Virus record (IMG/VR): IMGVR_UViG_3300042922_000116
Location: 1-38,603 of that record
DNA: 38,603 nucleotides
Origin: a virus
Reading direction: 5' to 3' (one strand)
In this document: one piece after another, positions 13,072 to 38,603 of the stretch
How the letters are laid out: each line of letters opens with the position of its first letter
Numbering within the stretch: the first letter of the stretch is position 1
Position numbers and translations under genes: made by a program
The notes under the pieces: model-generated
The model's input: the letters and a program-made list of their open reading frames with translations, nothing else
Told to the model about the DNA's origin: nothing
Databases searched by the model: none

Positions 13072-13641
13072 ATGATAATTACCCCTGTAACAGAGTTAGA
13101 TGCAGTCAATGAAATCCTATCGGCTGTAGGGGATTCCCCTGTGAACTCCATAGAGAACCCTAAGAATGTAAATGTGATAAATGCAATCCGTATGCTACGC
13201 TTAGTGACTCGCAAGCAACAGTCCCGAGGGTGGTTCTTTAATTCCTATAGCTCCTATGTGTTGAACCCTGATGTCTTCACAAAGAAAATACGCTGGCAAG
13301 ATAACTTTCTTCAGCTTGAGGGTTCCAATGGGGAGACCTTCATTAAACGTGGAGACTACCTCTACGATAAGGACAACCTAACGGATACCTTTACGGGCCC
13401 TGTGACTGTGGATGTGCTTCTTCAGGTCCCTTTTACCGACCTCCCGGAACAGCTAAGACATTACATCACAGCCAAGGCCGCTAAGGACTTCCAGACGAGA
13501 TACTTAGGAGATGCTGCGTTAGCTGAGGAATTAGCGAGGGATGAAGTAGAAGCGTATCAAGCTCTCATAGATGCTGACCTGGAAATCAACGATTACAATA
13601 TGCTTGACAATACAAGTGTAATGGAACTGCGGAGGAGATAG
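13072..13641 (+). CDS. Tail tubular protein A, T7 gp11-like
   Basis: Gatekeeper/adaptor ring between portal and nozzle. The 189 residues (T7 gp11 is 196) show the family pattern: AVNEILSAVGDSPVNS, then RMLRLVTRKQQSRGWFFN, and a late AAKDFQTRYLGDAALAEELARDEVEAY helix. AAAGGAGG at 13059-13066 precedes the ATG. It follows the capsid terminator and precedes gp12. Confidence 0.93.
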   Translation: MIITPVTELDAVNEILSAVGDSPVNSIENPKNVNVINAIRMLRLVTRKQQSRGWFFNSYSSYVLNPDVFTKKIRWQDNFLQLEGSNGETFIKRGDYLYDKDNLTDTFTGPVTVDVLLQVPFTDLPEQLRHYITAKAAKDFQTRYLGDAALAEELARDEVEAYQALIDADLEINDYNMLDNTSVMELRRR

Positions 13642-25729: not shown

Positions 25730-25915
25730 ATGGAATCACATGAAATCAAAACTGAATTGACCCGCATGGCCCCTCCTATAGGTGTCTCCACGGTATCTAT
25801 AGCAGGGGTCTCTCTGTCTGAGTGGGTCCTCGGGGCAACCCTCGTGTATACCCTCATTCAGATTGGATGGACAATCTATAGGATCGTCAGGCACTTCAAA
25901 GGAGGTAACAAGTGA
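25730..25915 (+). CDS. Holin, T7 gp17.5-like class II
   Basis: The 61-residue product follows the tail fibre as gene 17.5 does in T7. It has a polar N-terminus with MAPPIGVSTVSIAGVSLSEW, one clear membrane helix (VLGATLVYTLIQIGWTIY) and a basic tail (RIVRHFKGGNK), the pattern of T7-type holins. It would permeabilise the inner membrane so the amidase reaches the wall. It overlaps the next gene by GTGA. Confidence 0.82.
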   Translation: MESHEIKTELTRMAPPIGVSTVSIAGVSLSEWVLGATLVYTLIQIGWTIYRIVRHFKGGNK

Positions 25916-26157
25916 CCGAAAACAAAGACATGAGAATATGGACGATCATCTTTGTGGTCTTAGGAATTTCCGAGCAGCTTGCTAACGGTCTCCTTAAGAC
26001 CTCCTTTAGTCTCTATGACCTCCTTGCGGTCTATGGCATGGTAGCTGCTTATTATGGCTATACGTTCCATATGGCCTCCAAATGGGGTCCTCCGGGACAG
26101 CCTGTGACACGAAATCAGCAAATGACAGGAGGGAGCTATAGGAATGAACCAAATTAA
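25912..26157 (+). CDS. Two-span membrane protein of the lysis cassette, 81 aa
   Basis: The GTG at 25912 has AAAGGAGG at 25898-25905. Two hydrophobic helices (IWTIIFVVLGISEQLANGLL and LLAVYGMVAAYYGYTFHM) are followed by a polar tail. It lies between holin and amidase and overlaps both, so it could be an antiholin, second holin or lysis regulator. No family is recognised. Confidence 0.65.
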   Translation: MTENKDMRIWTIIFVVLGISEQLANGLLKTSFSLYDLLAVYGMVAAYYGYTFHMASKWGPPGQPVTRNQQMTGGSYRNEPN

Positions 26158-26629
26158 TATTAGGGAGACCTCTTTGGAATTCGGGGAGATGCTCCCACAA
26201 CCATATGTAAATCGCATTGTCATTCATCACATAGGAGACCCTCCCCGCGATGTATCCGCTAGTGAGGTGCATGGTTGGCATTTAGGTAATGGATGGGCAG
26301 GTATTGGCTATCATTATCTCATCCGCAGGGAAGGTACGATTGAGCGAGGGAGACCTGAGGAATACATTGGGTCTCATGCCCAAGGCTTCAACACAGGATC
26401 AATCGGGATAAACTTCGCAGGTAACATGGAGATCATGCCTGTTACACCTGAGCAGATCGAGAGCGGAGCTATGTTAATGGCTGATATTTGTCTGCGATAC
26501 GGTATGGTTCCTGATGGTGTCTCTGTGGTAGGGCATGGGTCCTTGATGCCTACAAGTTGTCCAGGGAAGAACCTCAGGGACCTATTGGACATCCTCAGGG
26601 GTAAAGCCGTTTGGTACACTCAGAATTAA
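26144..26629 (+). CDS. N-acetylmuramoyl-L-alanine amidase (T7 lysozyme-type)
   Basis: Amidase_2 zinc enzyme that cuts the bond between MurNAc and the stem peptide. Visible zinc ligands are His in VIHHIG, His in VVGHGSL and Cys in TSCPGKN, as in T7 lysozyme (His17, His122, Cys130). SIGINFAGNM and HYLIRREG are core strands. The 161-residue length fits T7 gp3.5 (151). T7 lysozyme also binds and inhibits T7 RNA polymerase; whether this protein does so is unknown. Here the gene sits in the late lysis cassette, not among the replication genes. Confidence 0.9.
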   Translation: MNQINIRETSLEFGEMLPQPYVNRIVIHHIGDPPRDVSASEVHGWHLGNGWAGIGYHYLIRREGTIERGRPEEYIGSHAQGFNTGSIGINFAGNMEIMPVTPEQIESGAMLMADICLRYGMVPDGVSVVGHGSLMPTSCPGKNLRDLLDILRGKAVWYTQN

Positions 26630-26658
26630 GATACTTTAATTAGAAAGGAGGCTATTTA

Positions 26659-26817
26659 ATGGAGGCTATTTCATCTTTTGCAGCTTTACTGGCAGCTACA
26701 ATCGACACTTCCTTACAGGACTCTAGGGAGAAATCCTTAGCTCTGACCAAGATCGAGGAAGCTGTGATGTGGGCCAATGCTGCAGCAACTAAACAGAGAC
26801 AAGGAGGCAATAAATGA
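26659..26817 (+). CDS. Acb2/Tad1-like hairpin protein, candidate cyclic-nucleotide sponge (anti-CBASS/Thoeris)
   Basis: AAAGGAGG at 26644-26651 precedes an ATG for 52 residues. The second half, SREKSLALTKIEEAVMWANAAA, has the signature I associate with the Acb2/Tad1 hairpin domain family: S-R-E/Q-x-S-L-A-x-T-K-L/I-E-E-A-x-M-W-A. These small phage proteins bind cyclic oligonucleotide signals made by CBASS or Thoeris and block defence. The stop overlaps the terminase small subunit start (ATGA). Family membership is strong by eye; actual sequestration is inferred. Confidence 0.75.
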   Translation: MEAISSFAALLAATIDTSLQDSREKSLALTKIEEAVMWANAAATKQRQGGNK

Positions 26818-27050
26818 CGAAAATTGACCAAAAGATTTTAGATGAAATTGCACAAAAGGAAGTAGAGGCTCTCCTTAAGAATCTTCAGGACCCTGAAATG
26901 ATTCGCAATCCGAGCTTCCTTGAGAAGGTCCGAAAGTTCCTTAAGGACAACAAACTCGATATCTCCCCGGAAACTCCAGGAGTCAAAACGATCCAGCGAA
27001 AAGCTGAGGAGCTCCCGGTGTTCGAGGATGAAGAAGGAGTCCTTAACTAA
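26814..27050 (+). CDS. Terminase small subunit (DNA maturase A), T7 gp18-like
   Basis: The 78-residue size (T7 gp18 is 89), position directly before the large subunit with a one-base overlap, and sequence layout (helical N-terminus EALLKNLQDPEMIRNPSFLEKVRKFLKDNKLDI then an acidic tail) match gp18-like small terminases, which mark concatemeric DNA for packaging. AAGGAGG at 26801-26807 serves the ATG. Confidence 0.85.
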   Translation: MTKIDQKILDEIAQKEVEALLKNLQDPEMIRNPSFLEKVRKFLKDNKLDISPETPGVKTIQRKAEELPVFEDEEGVLN

Positions 27051-28789
27051 TGTTTCAATGGACTCATGGACAAGTCGAAAAGGCTTTTGCAGACTTCCGC
27101 AAGTTCCTCTTCATTGTCTGGAGGATGGTAGGACTGCCTGAGCCTACACCTATTCAGTACGATATGGGAAAGACCCTTCAGAATCCCCCGAGCGATCGCT
27201 TCATACTTCAAGGATTTCGAGGGGTCGCTAAGTCCTTTATAACCTGTGCGCTTATCGTGTGGCTCCTCTGGAAAGACCCTCAAAAGAAATGTATGATTGT
27301 CTCAGCTTCAAAGGATCGTGCAGATGCTAACGCTGTGTTTATCAAGCGTATCATCCAAACGATCCCTTTTCTTTCTGAGCTGCTTCCTAAGGACAACCAG
27401 AGGAACACTCAGAATCTATTTGATGTTGGCCCTGCGGTTCCTGATATATCCCCCTCTGTGAAGTCTGTAGGTATTACCGGACAAATCACAGGGTCGCGTG
27501 CAGACATCCTTGTAGCTGACGATGTGGAGGTCCCTAACAATTCCGGGACACAACAGCAAAGGGATAAGCTCGGGGAAGCCGTTAAGGAGTTTGATGCTAT
27601 CCTGAAGCCTGGAGGTCAGATCATCTACCTCGGGACTCCTCAGAATGAAATGTCGATCTACAACGAACTCCAGAAGAGGGGCTATTCCACCATTATTTAT
27701 CCTGTGGTCTACCCTGAGAGCCAAAAGGAACGTGAGTTCTATGGGGATCGTTTGGCCCCTGTACTAGCTAGGAAGTACGATAAGAACCCTCAGAAGTATG
27801 CAGGGGTTCCTACAGACCCTCTGAGGTTCAATGAGGAAGAGATCGCGAAACGTAGGTTGTCCTATGGTCGCGCAGGGTTCGCCTTGCAGTTCCTCCTTAA
27901 TACTAACCTTAGCGATGCCGAGAAGTATCCCCTTAAGGTTCAAGACCTCATTGTTACTCAGCTTGACCTCAGCGAAACTAGCTTAAAATGGTCGTGGGCC
28001 TCAGGACCCCTTCAGAGACTCCAGGATGTTCCCTGTGTGGGTCTTAAAGGGGACTTTTTCTATGGTCCTTTCCAAAGGTCTACGGAGGTTGGCTATTATA
28101 CCGGAACTGTGATGGCAATAGACCCCTCAGGGAGAGGTAAGGACGAAACGGCGTATGCCATAGTGAAATACCTTAACGGCCATCTCTTTGTGATGGAGAT
28201 AGGAGGCTACAAGGATGGTTACTCTGATGCAACCTTAAGGACCCTTGCGAACAAGGCGAAGTTCTATAAGGTAACTGATGTGACCATTGAGCCTAACTTT
28301 GGGGATGGTATGTTCACTAAGCTAATAACTCCTATCTTCAATGAGATTCACCCTTGTAGTATCCAAGAGGCCAAGCGAAGCTCTACACAGAAGGAAGCCC
28401 GAATCATAGACACTCTGGAGCCTGTTATGGCCCAACATAAGCTTATCTTCCAGCAGCAGGTCCTTGAGGAAGACTATAAGGTCTATGAGATTGACCCTGC
28501 GTATTCCTTGATCTATCAAATGACTCGTATCTGCCGAGACCGTAACGCATTGGCCCATGATGACCGTCTGGATGCCCTCACGTTAGCTGTAGCGTTCTGG
28601 CTTGAGTTCATGGACAGGAATGCTCAGGTAGGCATGGATGAGCATATGGATGATCTACTGGAGCAATGGATGGACCCTGAGAGAGGTATTATGTACGTTG
28701 AGGAGAAGCCTGAGGGGAACCTGAAGGTAGCTAAGTATAATCATTCAGAAAAATGCATGAATATACTTCAAGGATTCTTTGAGGATTAA
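27050..28789 (+). CDS. Terminase large subunit (DNA maturase B), T7 gp19-like
   Basis: Packaging ATPase and nuclease. Walker A is QGFRGVAKSFITCA, close to T7 gp19, Walker B is ADILVADDVE, and the coupling motif region is YLGTPQNEMS. The nuclease domain has AIDPSGRGKDETAYAI, EPNFGDGMF and HDDRLDALTLAVAF with the conserved acidic residues. Length is 579 residues (T7 gp19 is 586). Its TAA stop is the first three bases of the first phage-type promoter. Confidence 0.96.
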   Translation: MFQWTHGQVEKAFADFRKFLFIVWRMVGLPEPTPIQYDMGKTLQNPPSDRFILQGFRGVAKSFITCALIVWLLWKDPQKKCMIVSASKDRADANAVFIKRIIQTIPFLSELLPKDNQRNTQNLFDVGPAVPDISPSVKSVGITGQITGSRADILVADDVEVPNNSGTQQQRDKLGEAVKEFDAILKPGGQIIYLGTPQNEMSIYNELQKRGYSTIIYPVVYPESQKEREFYGDRLAPVLARKYDKNPQKYAGVPTDPLRFNEEEIAKRRLSYGRAGFALQFLLNTNLSDAEKYPLKVQDLIVTQLDLSETSLKWSWASGPLQRLQDVPCVGLKGDFFYGPFQRSTEVGYYTGTVMAIDPSGRGKDETAYAIVKYLNGHLFVMEIGGYKDGYSDATLRTLANKAKFYKVTDVTIEPNFGDGMFTKLITPIFNEIHPCSIQEAKRSSTQKEARIIDTLEPVMAQHKLIFQQQVLEEDYKVYEIDPAYSLIYQMTRICRDRNALAHDDRLDALTLAVAFWLEFMDRNAQVGMDEHMDDLLEQWMDPERGIMYVEEKPEGNLKVAKYNHSEKCMNILQGFFED

Positions 28790-28810
28790 TTGTCCCCCAT
28801 ATATACAGGA
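28787..28810 (+). promoter_or_regulatory. Candidate phage RNA polymerase promoter, copy 1
   Basis: TAATTGTCCCCCATA is shared exactly by three sites in this window, followed here by TATACAGGA. The layout (TAAT start, about 17-18 bases to a TATA-like element, then purines) parallels the T7 promoter. The site sits at the right-end position where T7 has phi-OR. Confidence 0.6.
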
Positions 28811-28814
28811 AGCC

Positions 28815-28838
28815 TAATTGTCCCCCATATTAGAACGA
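28815..28838 (+). promoter_or_regulatory. Candidate phage RNA polymerase promoter, copy 2
   Basis: The same TAATTGTCCCCCATA core occurs 28 bases downstream of copy 1 and is followed by TTAGAACGAAAGG. The TTA-G step 18 bases after the first T would place +1 on a G. Tandem copies near genome ends are common in T7 relatives. Confidence 0.6.
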
Positions 28839-28905
28839 AAGGATAAAACATAGTATACAGAGCTAATGTCTGCCTATGTATGTCCTTGCATATTCCTCCT
28901 GTATC

Positions 28906-29214: not shown

Positions 29215-29757
29215 ATGAACTCAAAATATCTGCCTTATTTAAAGGCGTTTATAGCTGCTATCTTATGTACGGCTATTGTTTACCTAGGATACCAATGGTT
29301 CTTCAAAGAGCCTCCCAAGGCATCCCCTAAGCCTTCAACTCCTGCTATTATAGACCAAACAACCTCAGTCTCTACGATTCCTAAGGCATCTCTTCAGGAC
29401 CCTGATGTCTCACTACAACAGACCTATACAGCAGTTGTCAATGGTCAGAAGGTAGTAGCTCCTATCAAGACCTCAGGTCCCTCAGGAGTCACAGGGGTTA
29501 TTAAGCAAGAGATTGATATGACAAAGATTGTCGATAAAGCACTTGAGGCCGAAAGGAAACTCCTCCAGCCTCCTAAATGGGAACTAAGTACAGGCATAGG
29601 CGTCCATGACAAGGATGTCTATGTTCCTCTGGAACTCCAAAAGAACTACAAGATCAACCGAGCGTTATCTGCAGAGGTCCACTTAGATGCTGAGAAGCTA
29701 GTCCAAGGGCAGCTTAAGGTAACCGGAGGGGAGGTAAAGCACACTTGGAAATTCTAA
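29215..29757 (+). CDS. Membrane-anchored accessory protein, 180 aa
   Basis: An N-terminal anchor (AFIAAILCTAIVYLGYQWFF) is followed by a Pro/Ser-rich stalk, a helical segment (QEIDMTKIVDKALEAERKLL) and a beta-rich end (WELSTGIGVHDKDVYVPLELQKNY ... AEVHLDAEKLVQGQLKVTGG). This places about 155 residues outside the inner membrane. No family is named with confidence. It could act in lysis (spanin-like) or alter the envelope of the lysogen. AAGGAAGGG at 29200-29208 serves the ATG. Confidence 0.7.
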   Translation: MNSKYLPYLKAFIAAILCTAIVYLGYQWFFKEPPKASPKPSTPAIIDQTTSVSTIPKASLQDPDVSLQQTYTAVVNGQKVVAPIKTSGPSGVTGVIKQEIDMTKIVDKALEAERKLLQPPKWELSTGIGVHDKDVYVPLELQKNYKINRALSAEVHLDAEKLVQGQLKVTGGEVKHTWKF

Positions 29758-29972: not shown

Positions 29973-31541
29973 ATGGCATTAAATGTAGCAATATGTTGTC
30001 GGCTGTCTGAGGAGGATAAAAACAAACAGACAGGTATTATAGACAGTGAAAGCATTCAAAATCAAAAATCCATGCTTATATCATATGCAGTAGAGCGCGG
30101 GTGGGTAGTCTATGACATCTATAGCGATGATGATTACTCAGGAGCTGATAGGGACCGTCCAGCTTTCAAAAGACTTATTAGAGACGCAGAGGATCGTAAG
30201 TTTGATATTGTCCTTTGCAAATCTCAATCTCGCTTCACAAGGGAGCTTGAGTTAGTCGAGAAGTACCTTCATCACCTCTTCCCACTTTGGGGAATCCGCT
30301 TTGTAAGCATCGTAGACAACGCAGACACAGAGGTAAAAGGTAATAAGAAGTCAAGGCAAATTAATGGTCTTATTAACGAGTGGTATATCGAAGACCTCTC
30401 AGAGGATATTAAGAAGGTATTGACAGACAAACGCAAGAAGGGTCTTCATATCGGCGCGTTCGTTCGGTATGGATACCAAAAGGACCCAAACCGAAAAGGC
30501 CACATAATCATTGATGAGGAAGCGGCTCAAGTTGTTAGAGAGATATTCACACTATATGCCTCTGGTTATGGTAAGCACACCATAGCGCGTTTATTGAACG
30601 CTCGGGGTATCCCAAACCCTACAACCTATAAACAGTTGAAGGGGATTCATTATCAACAATCAAGGCATCAGCACAGTCCTTTCTGGAGTTATCATGTAAT
30701 CTCTGAGACATTAGTTAATGAAATCTATAGAGGACATATGGTACAAGGTAGGGTAGCCAGTATATCCTATAAGACCCAAAAGAGTCGTAAGGTCCCTAAG
30801 GATAAGTGGCTGATTGTAAAGAACACACACGAGCCTATCATCAGTGAACAACTATGGAACACAGTACAGGCCCTTAACAAACACACAGCTAAACCTTGTA
30901 GTACAGGGATTGTCTCTATCTTCGCAGGGAAGGCCAAATGCCAACACTGCGGGTACGCCTTAAAGAACCAAAGGAAAAGCAATAGCGACTCTCGCTATCT
31001 AACCTGCACAACACGCCTTAACAGAAGCGTAGATGCTTGCCCTGGAACCTTTATCGCTGTTAAGACATTAGAACAGAACGTCCTAGAGCAGCTTCAAGGG
31101 ATTCTCAAGGAGTTCCTTAATGAGGAAGAGACAGAGCAACAGATACGCCTACGGAGTTCCATTGAGGAACAGCAGGTGAACCTTCGCTCATCATTAGCTA
31201 CATACGAGCAGAAGAACGCTGAGTATTCTAAAGGTATCAAAGAGCTTTACCTTGACAAAACCAGAGGAATACTTACAGAAGGAGAATTCCTCCATCTGCA
31301 ACGAGAGTTATCAAAAGACAAAGAAAAGGTTGCAAAACTTATCACAGCCACACAGGATCAAATAAGTTCCTTAGAGTCTAAAAAGAGTACAACAAGAACC
31401 CGTAGGGATATCCTTGAGAAATATAAGGAAACCTCTTCACTTGATAGGGTTATGATAGTAGAACTCATTGACACTATCTTAATCGGGAAAAGAAACCCTG
31501 AGACTAAAAAGTGGCCTATAGAAATCAAATGGAGTCTATAG
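29973..31541 (+). CDS. Large serine recombinase (phage integrase)
   Basis: 522 residues. The N-terminal resolvase domain shows AICCRLSEEDK with the probable catalytic Ser12, SIQNQKSMLISYA, YSDDDYSGADRDRPAFKRL and QSRFTRE. A recombinase domain follows (GYGKHTIARLLNARGIPNP). The zinc ribbon is CQHCGYALKN ... CTTRLNRSVDAC, with a long coiled coil near residues 395-475, as in phiC31/TP901-type integrases. It would integrate the phage at attB. GAGGAG (29954-29959) is 13 bases from ATG 29973 but only 5 from an out-of-frame ATG at 29965 encoding MSKWH-stop, so initiation may be damped. Genuine T7 lacks any integrase. Confidence 0.95.
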   Translation: MALNVAICCRLSEEDKNKQTGIIDSESIQNQKSMLISYAVERGWVVYDIYSDDDYSGADRDRPAFKRLIRDAEDRKFDIVLCKSQSRFTRELELVEKYLHHLFPLWGIRFVSIVDNADTEVKGNKKSRQINGLINEWYIEDLSEDIKKVLTDKRKKGLHIGAFVRYGYQKDPNRKGHIIIDEEAAQVVREIFTLYASGYGKHTIARLLNARGIPNPTTYKQLKGIHYQQSRHQHSPFWSYHVISETLVNEIYRGHMVQGRVASISYKTQKSRKVPKDKWLIVKNTHEPIISEQLWNTVQALNKHTAKPCSTGIVSIFAGKAKCQHCGYALKNQRKSNSDSRYLTCTTRLNRSVDACPGTFIAVKTLEQNVLEQLQGILKEFLNEEETEQQIRLRSSIEEQQVNLRSSLATYEQKNAEYSKGIKELYLDKTRGILTEGEFLHLQRELSKDKEKVAKLITATQDQISSLESKKSTTRTRRDILEKYKETSSLDRVMIVELIDTILIGKRNPETKKWPIEIKWSL

Positions 31542-32882: not shown

Positions 32883-33311
32883 TTAGCGCAGGTCCTTACG
32901 AATCCACTCAATCGTATACCCAAGAATGTCAGCTATTTCCAGCACTTCTTTATAAGTAATTGTACCTCTTCTTAATTTATTAGTCAGATTCGCGCTTGAT
33001 GTTGGTCTTCCTCTTTGGGCTAATTCCTCACATACTTCCTGCATGGTTCTACCTTCGCGAGTGATATAGGACTTTATTATATCTCTAAGGTCCTCAGGGT
33101 CTTCTTCTGGAGACTTTAGGCTTTCTGCAGGATTCGCCGGAGGTCTCATTTCCATATTAAACCCTTGATTCGCTAGTTGCTCCATATGTGCATTAACTAG
33201 TTTAGTAACCATCTCTTCTAATGTTTGATGCTGAGGAGTCTTTGTTATATCTTCCTGGTTAACCTGCTGTCTTTCCTTTGCGGGTTCTTTACGACTCTGT
33301 TTCTCGCTCAT
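32883..33311 (-). CDS. Phage repressor-like protein with C-terminal helix-turn-helix
   Basis: This is the only convincing minus-strand gene. The 142-residue product has a polar, probably disordered or coiled N-terminal half (SEKQSRKEPAKERQQ ... MVTKLVNAHMEQLANQ) and a C-terminal Cro/CI-type helix-turn-helix (IIKSYITREGRTMQEVCEELAQ ... SSANLTNKLRRGTITYKEVLEIADILGYTIEWIRK). GGGAGG lies just upstream of the ATG. No LexA/CI Ser-Lys peptidase domain is present, so RecA-stimulated self-cleavage is not expected. It diverges from the early operon across an operator cluster and is the likely lysogeny repressor. Confidence 0.8.
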   Translation of the reverse strand: MSEKQSRKEPAKERQQVNQEDITKTPQHQTLEEMVTKLVNAHMEQLANQGFNMEMRPPANPAESLKSPEEDPEDLRDIIKSYITREGRTMQEVCEELAQRGRPTSSANLTNKLRRGTITYKEVLEIADILGYTIEWIRKDLR

Positions 33312-38269: not shown

Positions 38270-38293
38270 TAATTGTCCCCCATAATAGAAAGA
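38270..38293 (+). promoter_or_regulatory. Candidate phage RNA polymerase promoter, copy 3
   Basis: TAATTGTCCCCCATA recurs three bases after the polymerase stop codon and is followed by ATAGAAAG, placing a G 18 bases after the first T. T7 has its first middle promoters (phi 1.1A/B) after genes 1-1.1 in the same way. Confidence 0.6.
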
Positions 38294-38319
38294 AGACGCT
38301 CTTAAGTCCTCCTTAGGGT

Positions 38320-38428: not shown

Positions 38429-38603
38429 ATGGTAACAAAGAAAACCAAAGCGACTCCTGAGGTAGTTCCAGAGGTAACTCCTGAGGTAGTTCCAGAGGTA
38501 ACTCCTGAGGTAGTTCCAGAGGTAACTCCTGAGGTAGTTCCAGAGGTAACTCCTGAGGTAGTTCCAGAGGTAACTCCTGAGGTAGTTCCAGAGGTAACTC
38601 CTG
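38429..38603 (+). CDS. Tandem-repeat protein (TPEVVPEV)n, 3' end missing
   Basis: AAAGGAGG at 38408-38415 precedes ATG 38429. After MVTKKTKA the frame runs through exact copies of the octapeptide TPEVVPEV to the window end, with no stop. Such Pro-Glu-Val repeats form an extended, acidic, rod-like or disordered chain. The position after the early terminator is that of T7 class II genes between polymerase and primase. The total length and the domain that follows are unknown. Confidence 0.6.
   Translation, partial: MVTKKTKATPEVVPEVTPEVVPEVTPEVVPEVTPEVVPEVTPEVVPEVTPEVVPEVTP
38453..38603 (+). repeat. 24-bp perfect tandem repeat, at least 6.3 copies
   Basis: Six identical 24-base units plus seven bases run to the end of the window, each encoding TPEVVPEV. 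Each unit is two related 12-mers (ACTCCTGAGGTA and GTTCCAGAGGTA). Exact identity indicates recent expansion or ongoing slippage, and such a repeat would also break a short-read assembly here. Confidence 0.95.

Follow-up and report, generated by a model that had tools for sequence, protein, structure and literature searches.

A 52-residue protein encoded between the lysis and terminase genes of a T7-like phage clearly belongs, by sequence, to the Acb2/Tad1 hairpin superfamily PF24729, and it represents a reduced form of that family. Our preferred reading, held tentatively and at somewhat below an even chance, is of a stand-alone hairpin that lacks the dinucleotide-pocket segment, keeps both the core and the oligomer interface, and would probably serve as a sponge limited to cyclic trinucleotides. 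Di- and trinucleotides occupy separate pockets in Acb2 and Tad1, and bacteria punish dinucleotide sponges through the Panoptes system. A natural hairpin-only protein would show whether the trinucleotide site works alone, and whether phages trim their sponges to evade Panoptes. If this protein is a sponge, it is a very small one.

The window (the whole stretch of DNA analysed, 38,603 nucleotides) encodes the product MEAISSFAALLAATIDTSLQDSREKSLALTKIEEAVMWANAAATKQRQGGNK on its plus strand, at 26659-26817; the translation contains the peptide quoted in the first-pass annotation. This open reading frame is a real gene, with codon usage like that of genuine genes: codon log-odds are +12.4 in the gene frame, -16.6 and -22.0 in the remaining two forward frames, and +10.0 on average for windows within known genes of the same contig. 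Two other features read from the DNA at the outset, a strong ribosome-binding site and coupling to the terminase small subunit (TerS), are likewise borne out (Table 1). The former lies in the context AGAAAGGAGGCTA, and a similar one also precedes the open reading frame at 13072; the latter takes the form of a stop/start overlap, from which translational coupling of the two genes is probable. No sigma-70-type promoter for the sponge-family gene rose above chance.

Table 1. Features of the lysis-to-terminase region and of the putative lysogeny genes (positions in the window).
Feature	Position	Strand	Basis
T7-family holin	25730..25915	+	PF10746, phrog_920
Small protein, 81 aa, kept in relative L115	25912..26157	+	
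N-acetylmuramoyl-L-alanine amidase (endolysin)	26144..26629	+	PF01510 E=1.3e-22
Sponge-family gene ribosome-binding site AAGGAGG, ATG 7 nt downstream	26645..26651	+	sequence
Acb2/Tad1-type hairpin protein, 52 aa, reduced form	26659..26817	+	PF24729 E=5.9e-14; AlphaFold2 two-helix hairpin, mean pLDDT 93.7
TerS ribosome-binding site AAGGAGG, within 3' end of sponge-family gene	26801..26807	+	sequence
ATGA overlap, 4 bases: TerS ATG 26814-26816, sponge-family TGA 26815-26817	26814..26817	+	sequence
Terminase small subunit (TerS)	26814..27050	+	PF11123 28.3 bits, cut-off 27.5; phrog_1351
Terminase large subunit (TerL), T7 type	27050..28789	+	55-58% identity to T7-like phage terminases
Large serine recombinase	29973-31541	+	PF07508, PF00239
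Small DNA-binding repressor candidate	32883-33311	-	PF20075 (DUF6471)

The profile search that the first-pass annotation proposed as a check returned PF24729 from Pfam at 52.4 bits (E=5.9e-14; curated cut-off, 27 bits) and phrog_1454 at E=4.5e-13. Both lie far beyond chance, and the call of the Acb2/Tad1 hairpin family holds. (A search of NCBIfam gave no match.) The positive controls, T4 Vs.4, PaP2 Acb2, and a protein of Paenibacillus phage Sitara, all matched PF24729, as did one of Mycobacterium phage Coog. Viral contigs and bacterial genomes supplied about 80 relatives, with 52 in the aligned set; a PDB search with a profile built from 52 relatives retrieved Acb2 homolog 43 (9ptq), Tad1, and T4 Vs.4. 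The conserved core of the family, R-E-x5-T-x2-E-E-A-x2-W-A, is present: R23, E24, T30, E33-A35, and M37-N40 all match. Measured against the family consensus, core identity is 0.90, as is the family mean, in a set of relatives whose core conservation is partly built in, several search patterns having been derived from the core itself. Among 398 bacterial genomes of one phylum, only the centre genome, a carrier known beforehand, passes the PF24729 cut-off; in that sample the domain is rare in bacteria. In three relatives (L063, L075, and L049) the hairpin domain forms the C-terminal end of a longer open frame, of at most about 300 residues, which suggests possible hairpin fusions.

The reduction lies at the N-terminus. 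The match covers profile positions 13-57 of 58; those of the T4, PaP2, and Sitara proteins begin at position 1. The F-x-Y-H-x-P segment, together with an Arg 15 residues past its Tyr, occurs in almost every relative examined and is absent here. Numbered by relative L035, the aligned set conserves Y11 (49/52), H12 (49/52), P14 (48/52), and R26 (51/52). The 52-residue protein starts at position 22 of this numbering; Y11, H12, and P14 are absent, and R26 is replaced by S5. At the other end, the C-terminal Arg of the relatives is Lys (K45). Most of the actinophage relatives examined retain the aromatic-His pair (F-H or Y-H), and the relatives gathered included no second copy of the exact short form.

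Upstream of the ATG, the frame stays open for only five sense codons (KGGYL|M) before a stop is reached at the sixth, so an N-terminal extension of more than five residues is impossible. The gap to the amidase gene is only 29 nt and contains the ribosome site. Because the frame is closed just upstream and the gap is this short, the absence of the segment is clean, resulting from neither a start-site error nor a frameshift. A hidden N-terminal remnant further upstream was considered and ruled out on the same grounds.

Residues of known function in T4 Acb2 (Vs.4) include those that contact cGAMP (Y8, H11, K23, R79, and F82) and those that form the hexamer interface (L29, A66, A73, and A77; Jenson et al., PMC10097602). 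Profile alignment fixed the register of helix 2 (T4 63-84 equals family 46-67 and residues 25-46 of the 52-residue protein); that of helix 1 was inferred from the common 15-residue spacing from Tyr to Lys or Arg (T4 Y8-K23; PaP2 Y11-K26; family Y11-R26). Comparing the profiles of the Sitara-like family and PaP2 Acb2 was uninformative, so residues were mapped on T4 only. Every cGAMP contact differs: Y8 and H11 are absent, K23 corresponds to S5, R79 to A41, and F82 to T44. All four hexamer-interface residues are identical: L11 (for L29, placed by spacing), A28 (A66), A35 (A73), and A39 (A77). T4 residue T68, at which the mutation T68M lowers Acb2 affinity (PMC12657230), is also retained, as T30. 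By this mapping, the known dinucleotide-holding residues appear to be gone and the known oligomer-holding residues kept. The Sitara-like relatives likewise lack equivalents of R79 and F82, so it is the N-terminal segment, and not those two residues, that sets the 52-residue protein apart.

The AlphaFold2 model is a confidently predicted two-helix hairpin, with helices at residues 2-18 and 23-49; prediction for a full-length relative shows an additional N-terminal helix. A Foldseek search against 350,542 PDB chains placed three CbTad1 chains at the top with weak scores (best E=0.41); one of the three is from 8kbf, the entry with cA3 bound, whose hairpin (residues 66-118) is the part aligned. 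By Z (6.3), CbTad1 ranks level with helical proteins of no known kinship. Because comparable Z values link two-helix hairpins to a wide range of unrelated proteins, the fold search supports the family assignment but was rejected as proof of it.

Comparison with the characterised proteins reveals a shared hairpin in different settings. Acb2 (T4 Vs.4 and PaP2 p26; PDB 7uq2 and 8h2j) has the PF24729 hairpin, with the T4 hexamer-interface residues conserved in the present protein, but is 88-94 residues long and carries an N-terminal helix and an IKGY motif; the 52-residue protein has neither this segment nor the five mapped cGAMP contacts. Tad1 (PDB 7uav and 8kbf) has the hairpin helices in common with it but adds an N-terminal beta domain; the 52-residue protein is all helical and begins at the hairpin. 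The closest sequence relatives are the F-x-Y-H-x-P / SREKSLAxTKLEEAVMWANAAIAR proteins of Paenibacillus and metagenomic phages (for example Sitara gp67, 67 residues), which have a near-identical hairpin core and 58-64% identity over about 40 residues. Three features of these Sitara-like proteins are missing from the 52-residue protein: the aromatic-His motif at the N-terminus, the Arg of helix 1, and the IAR tail. Since it lacks a defining feature of each (the dinucleotide pocket for Acb2, the beta domain for Tad1), the protein should be filed under the superfamily, as neither Acb2 nor Tad1 proper. The same two absences partly contradict the initial proposal of a general sponge for CBASS and Thoeris signals.

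Sponge action is nevertheless plausible from the sequence, and since the elements for dinucleotides are missing, the simplest hypothesis to work with is a sponge for trinucleotides only. Acb2 has two separate sites; the one for trinucleotides, which are bound more tightly, is formed where the helices meet at the trimer interface (PMC12043709). We infer that the 52-residue hairpin would still assemble into an oligomer, would retain this site, and would act as a sponge, most likely for the cyclic trinucleotides cA3 and cAAG. Expressed late, alongside packaging and capsid proteins, it would blunt CBASS or cA3-based type III CRISPR signalling while structural proteins accumulate. Counting against this preferred reading, the missing N-terminal segment may be needed for the hexamer too.

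Loss of dinucleotide binding could bring a second benefit. Acb2 activates Panoptes by binding dinucleotides, and Panoptes kills cells once Acb2 has removed them; Y8A or F82C abolishes activation (PMC12657218). Phage escape from Panoptes has been reported through loss of Acb2 dinucleotide binding (PMC12657218, PMC12657230), and the reduced protein could help its phage avoid Panoptes in this way. The fuller proposal, a natural half-sponge that takes up trinucleotides only, blocks cA3-based CBASS or type III CRISPR without triggering Panoptes, and is timed by the terminase overlap, is possible, if on the unlikely side. The overlap with TerS suggests that a phage can link the making of a sponge to late infection, the stage at which it produces the capsid proteins associated with activation of CBASS and Thoeris.

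The main rival is that the gene is the decayed remnant of a full sponge, binds no nucleotide, and persists because the stop/start overlap aids TerS translation. Loss of every known dinucleotide contact would fit such decay, as would the nearest T7-like relatives, which manage without the gene. However, the core stands at family-average identity, which argues against decay, and the gene has a strong ribosome site, normal codon usage, no frameshift, and no residual N-terminal coding sequence; moreover, TerS owns a separate ribosome-binding site. We consider this explanation unlikely.

Distinctly less probable is a fully working sponge that holds dinucleotides or other signals by another set of residues, such as K25, W38, or K45, in a rearranged oligomer. 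The replacement of the relatives' C-terminal Arg by Lys (K45) would be compatible with it, and the ligand pockets of Tad1 use the hairpin helices together with other parts. Gordonia phage Culver gp10 (55 residues; L211:1414-1581), another short stand-alone hairpin with the core SREKSLALTKLEEAYLWA, shows that the family tolerates short forms, although it differs in its shorter helix 1, in keeping Tyr residues before the hairpin, and in its phage type. Against such a sponge, the single mutations Y8A and F82C each abolish the dinucleotide action of T4 Acb2 (PMC12657218), and both positions are lost here.

The phage itself is T7-like in its RNA polymerase, DNA polymerase, and terminase. The large serine recombinase and the repressor candidate sit between TerL and the RNA polymerase gene, which makes a temperate T7-like lineage probable; the late-operon position in a T7-like phage described at the outset is borne out, in a phage with such lysogeny genes. 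(The best match of the recombinase in a plasmid collection is from Subdoligranulum, at 51%, and in relative L113, too, a recombinase follows TerL.) An IMG/VR search with a TerL alignment found the closest terminase relatives, L113-L115, at 69-76% identity; TerS, or TerL by itself, retrieved none. With lysis genes named by eye, the gene order in L115 is holin, two small genes, a lysozyme-like gene, TerS, and TerL, and that in L114 is holin, another amidase-like gene, and TerS. Neither contains the sponge-family gene, and none of 50 terminase relatives, several of them fragments, matches PF24729. The gene is thus accessory, inserted into a variable slot between lysis genes and TerS, and the presence of this domain in the late operon is unusual within T7-like phages.

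Across the family as a whole, the position is more familiar. Whitty gp1 lies 6 nt upstream of TerS, and the distance to the downstream terminase gene is about 30 nt in L035 (TerL), about 115 nt in L011 (TerS), and about 196 nt in L097 (TerL). In 14 of 19 loci sampled, the downstream large gene is a packaging, head, or tail gene; in a survey of 63 loci, the terminase large subunit was the commonest downstream match and was scarcer upstream. Given how common structural genes are among phages, this modest excess amounts to a tendency and no strict rule. Relatives do often adjoin packaging or structural genes, several directly before terminase genes, and the late position, at first judged odd for an anti-defence gene, is not odd for this family. 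It is very improbable that the hairpin has been co-opted, as an oligomerisation module, for an accessory function in packaging or the head and has no defence role: the gene adjoins and overlaps TerS, family members are often near packaging and head genes, and core conservation is unusually high for an arms-race protein, but the solved and studied members (Acb2 and Tad1) bind cyclic nucleotides, and the T7-like relatives package DNA without the gene.

Other features of the window were noted in passing. Phage-polymerase promoter-like repeats (TAATTGTCCCCCATANTAGAA) occur at 28787, 28815, and 38270, with none near the sponge-family gene. The full repeat, TAATTGTCCCCCATANTAGAANGAA, is a candidate phage-polymerase promoter; it spans 28787-28811 and 28815-28839 after TerL (one of these copies being degenerate), and 38270-38294 after the RNA polymerase gene. 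Also after TerL, the plus strand at 29215-29757 encodes a 180-residue protein whose N-terminal stretch is hydrophobic and which matches no family; by position it is spanin-like, an assignment that is unproven. The contig seems to begin inside a primase/helicase gene (1-142, helicase part only), so the record appears to be permuted or incomplete. At the contig end, just past the RNA polymerase gene, tandem 12-nt units (38429-38596) encode a TPEVVPEV-like repeat.
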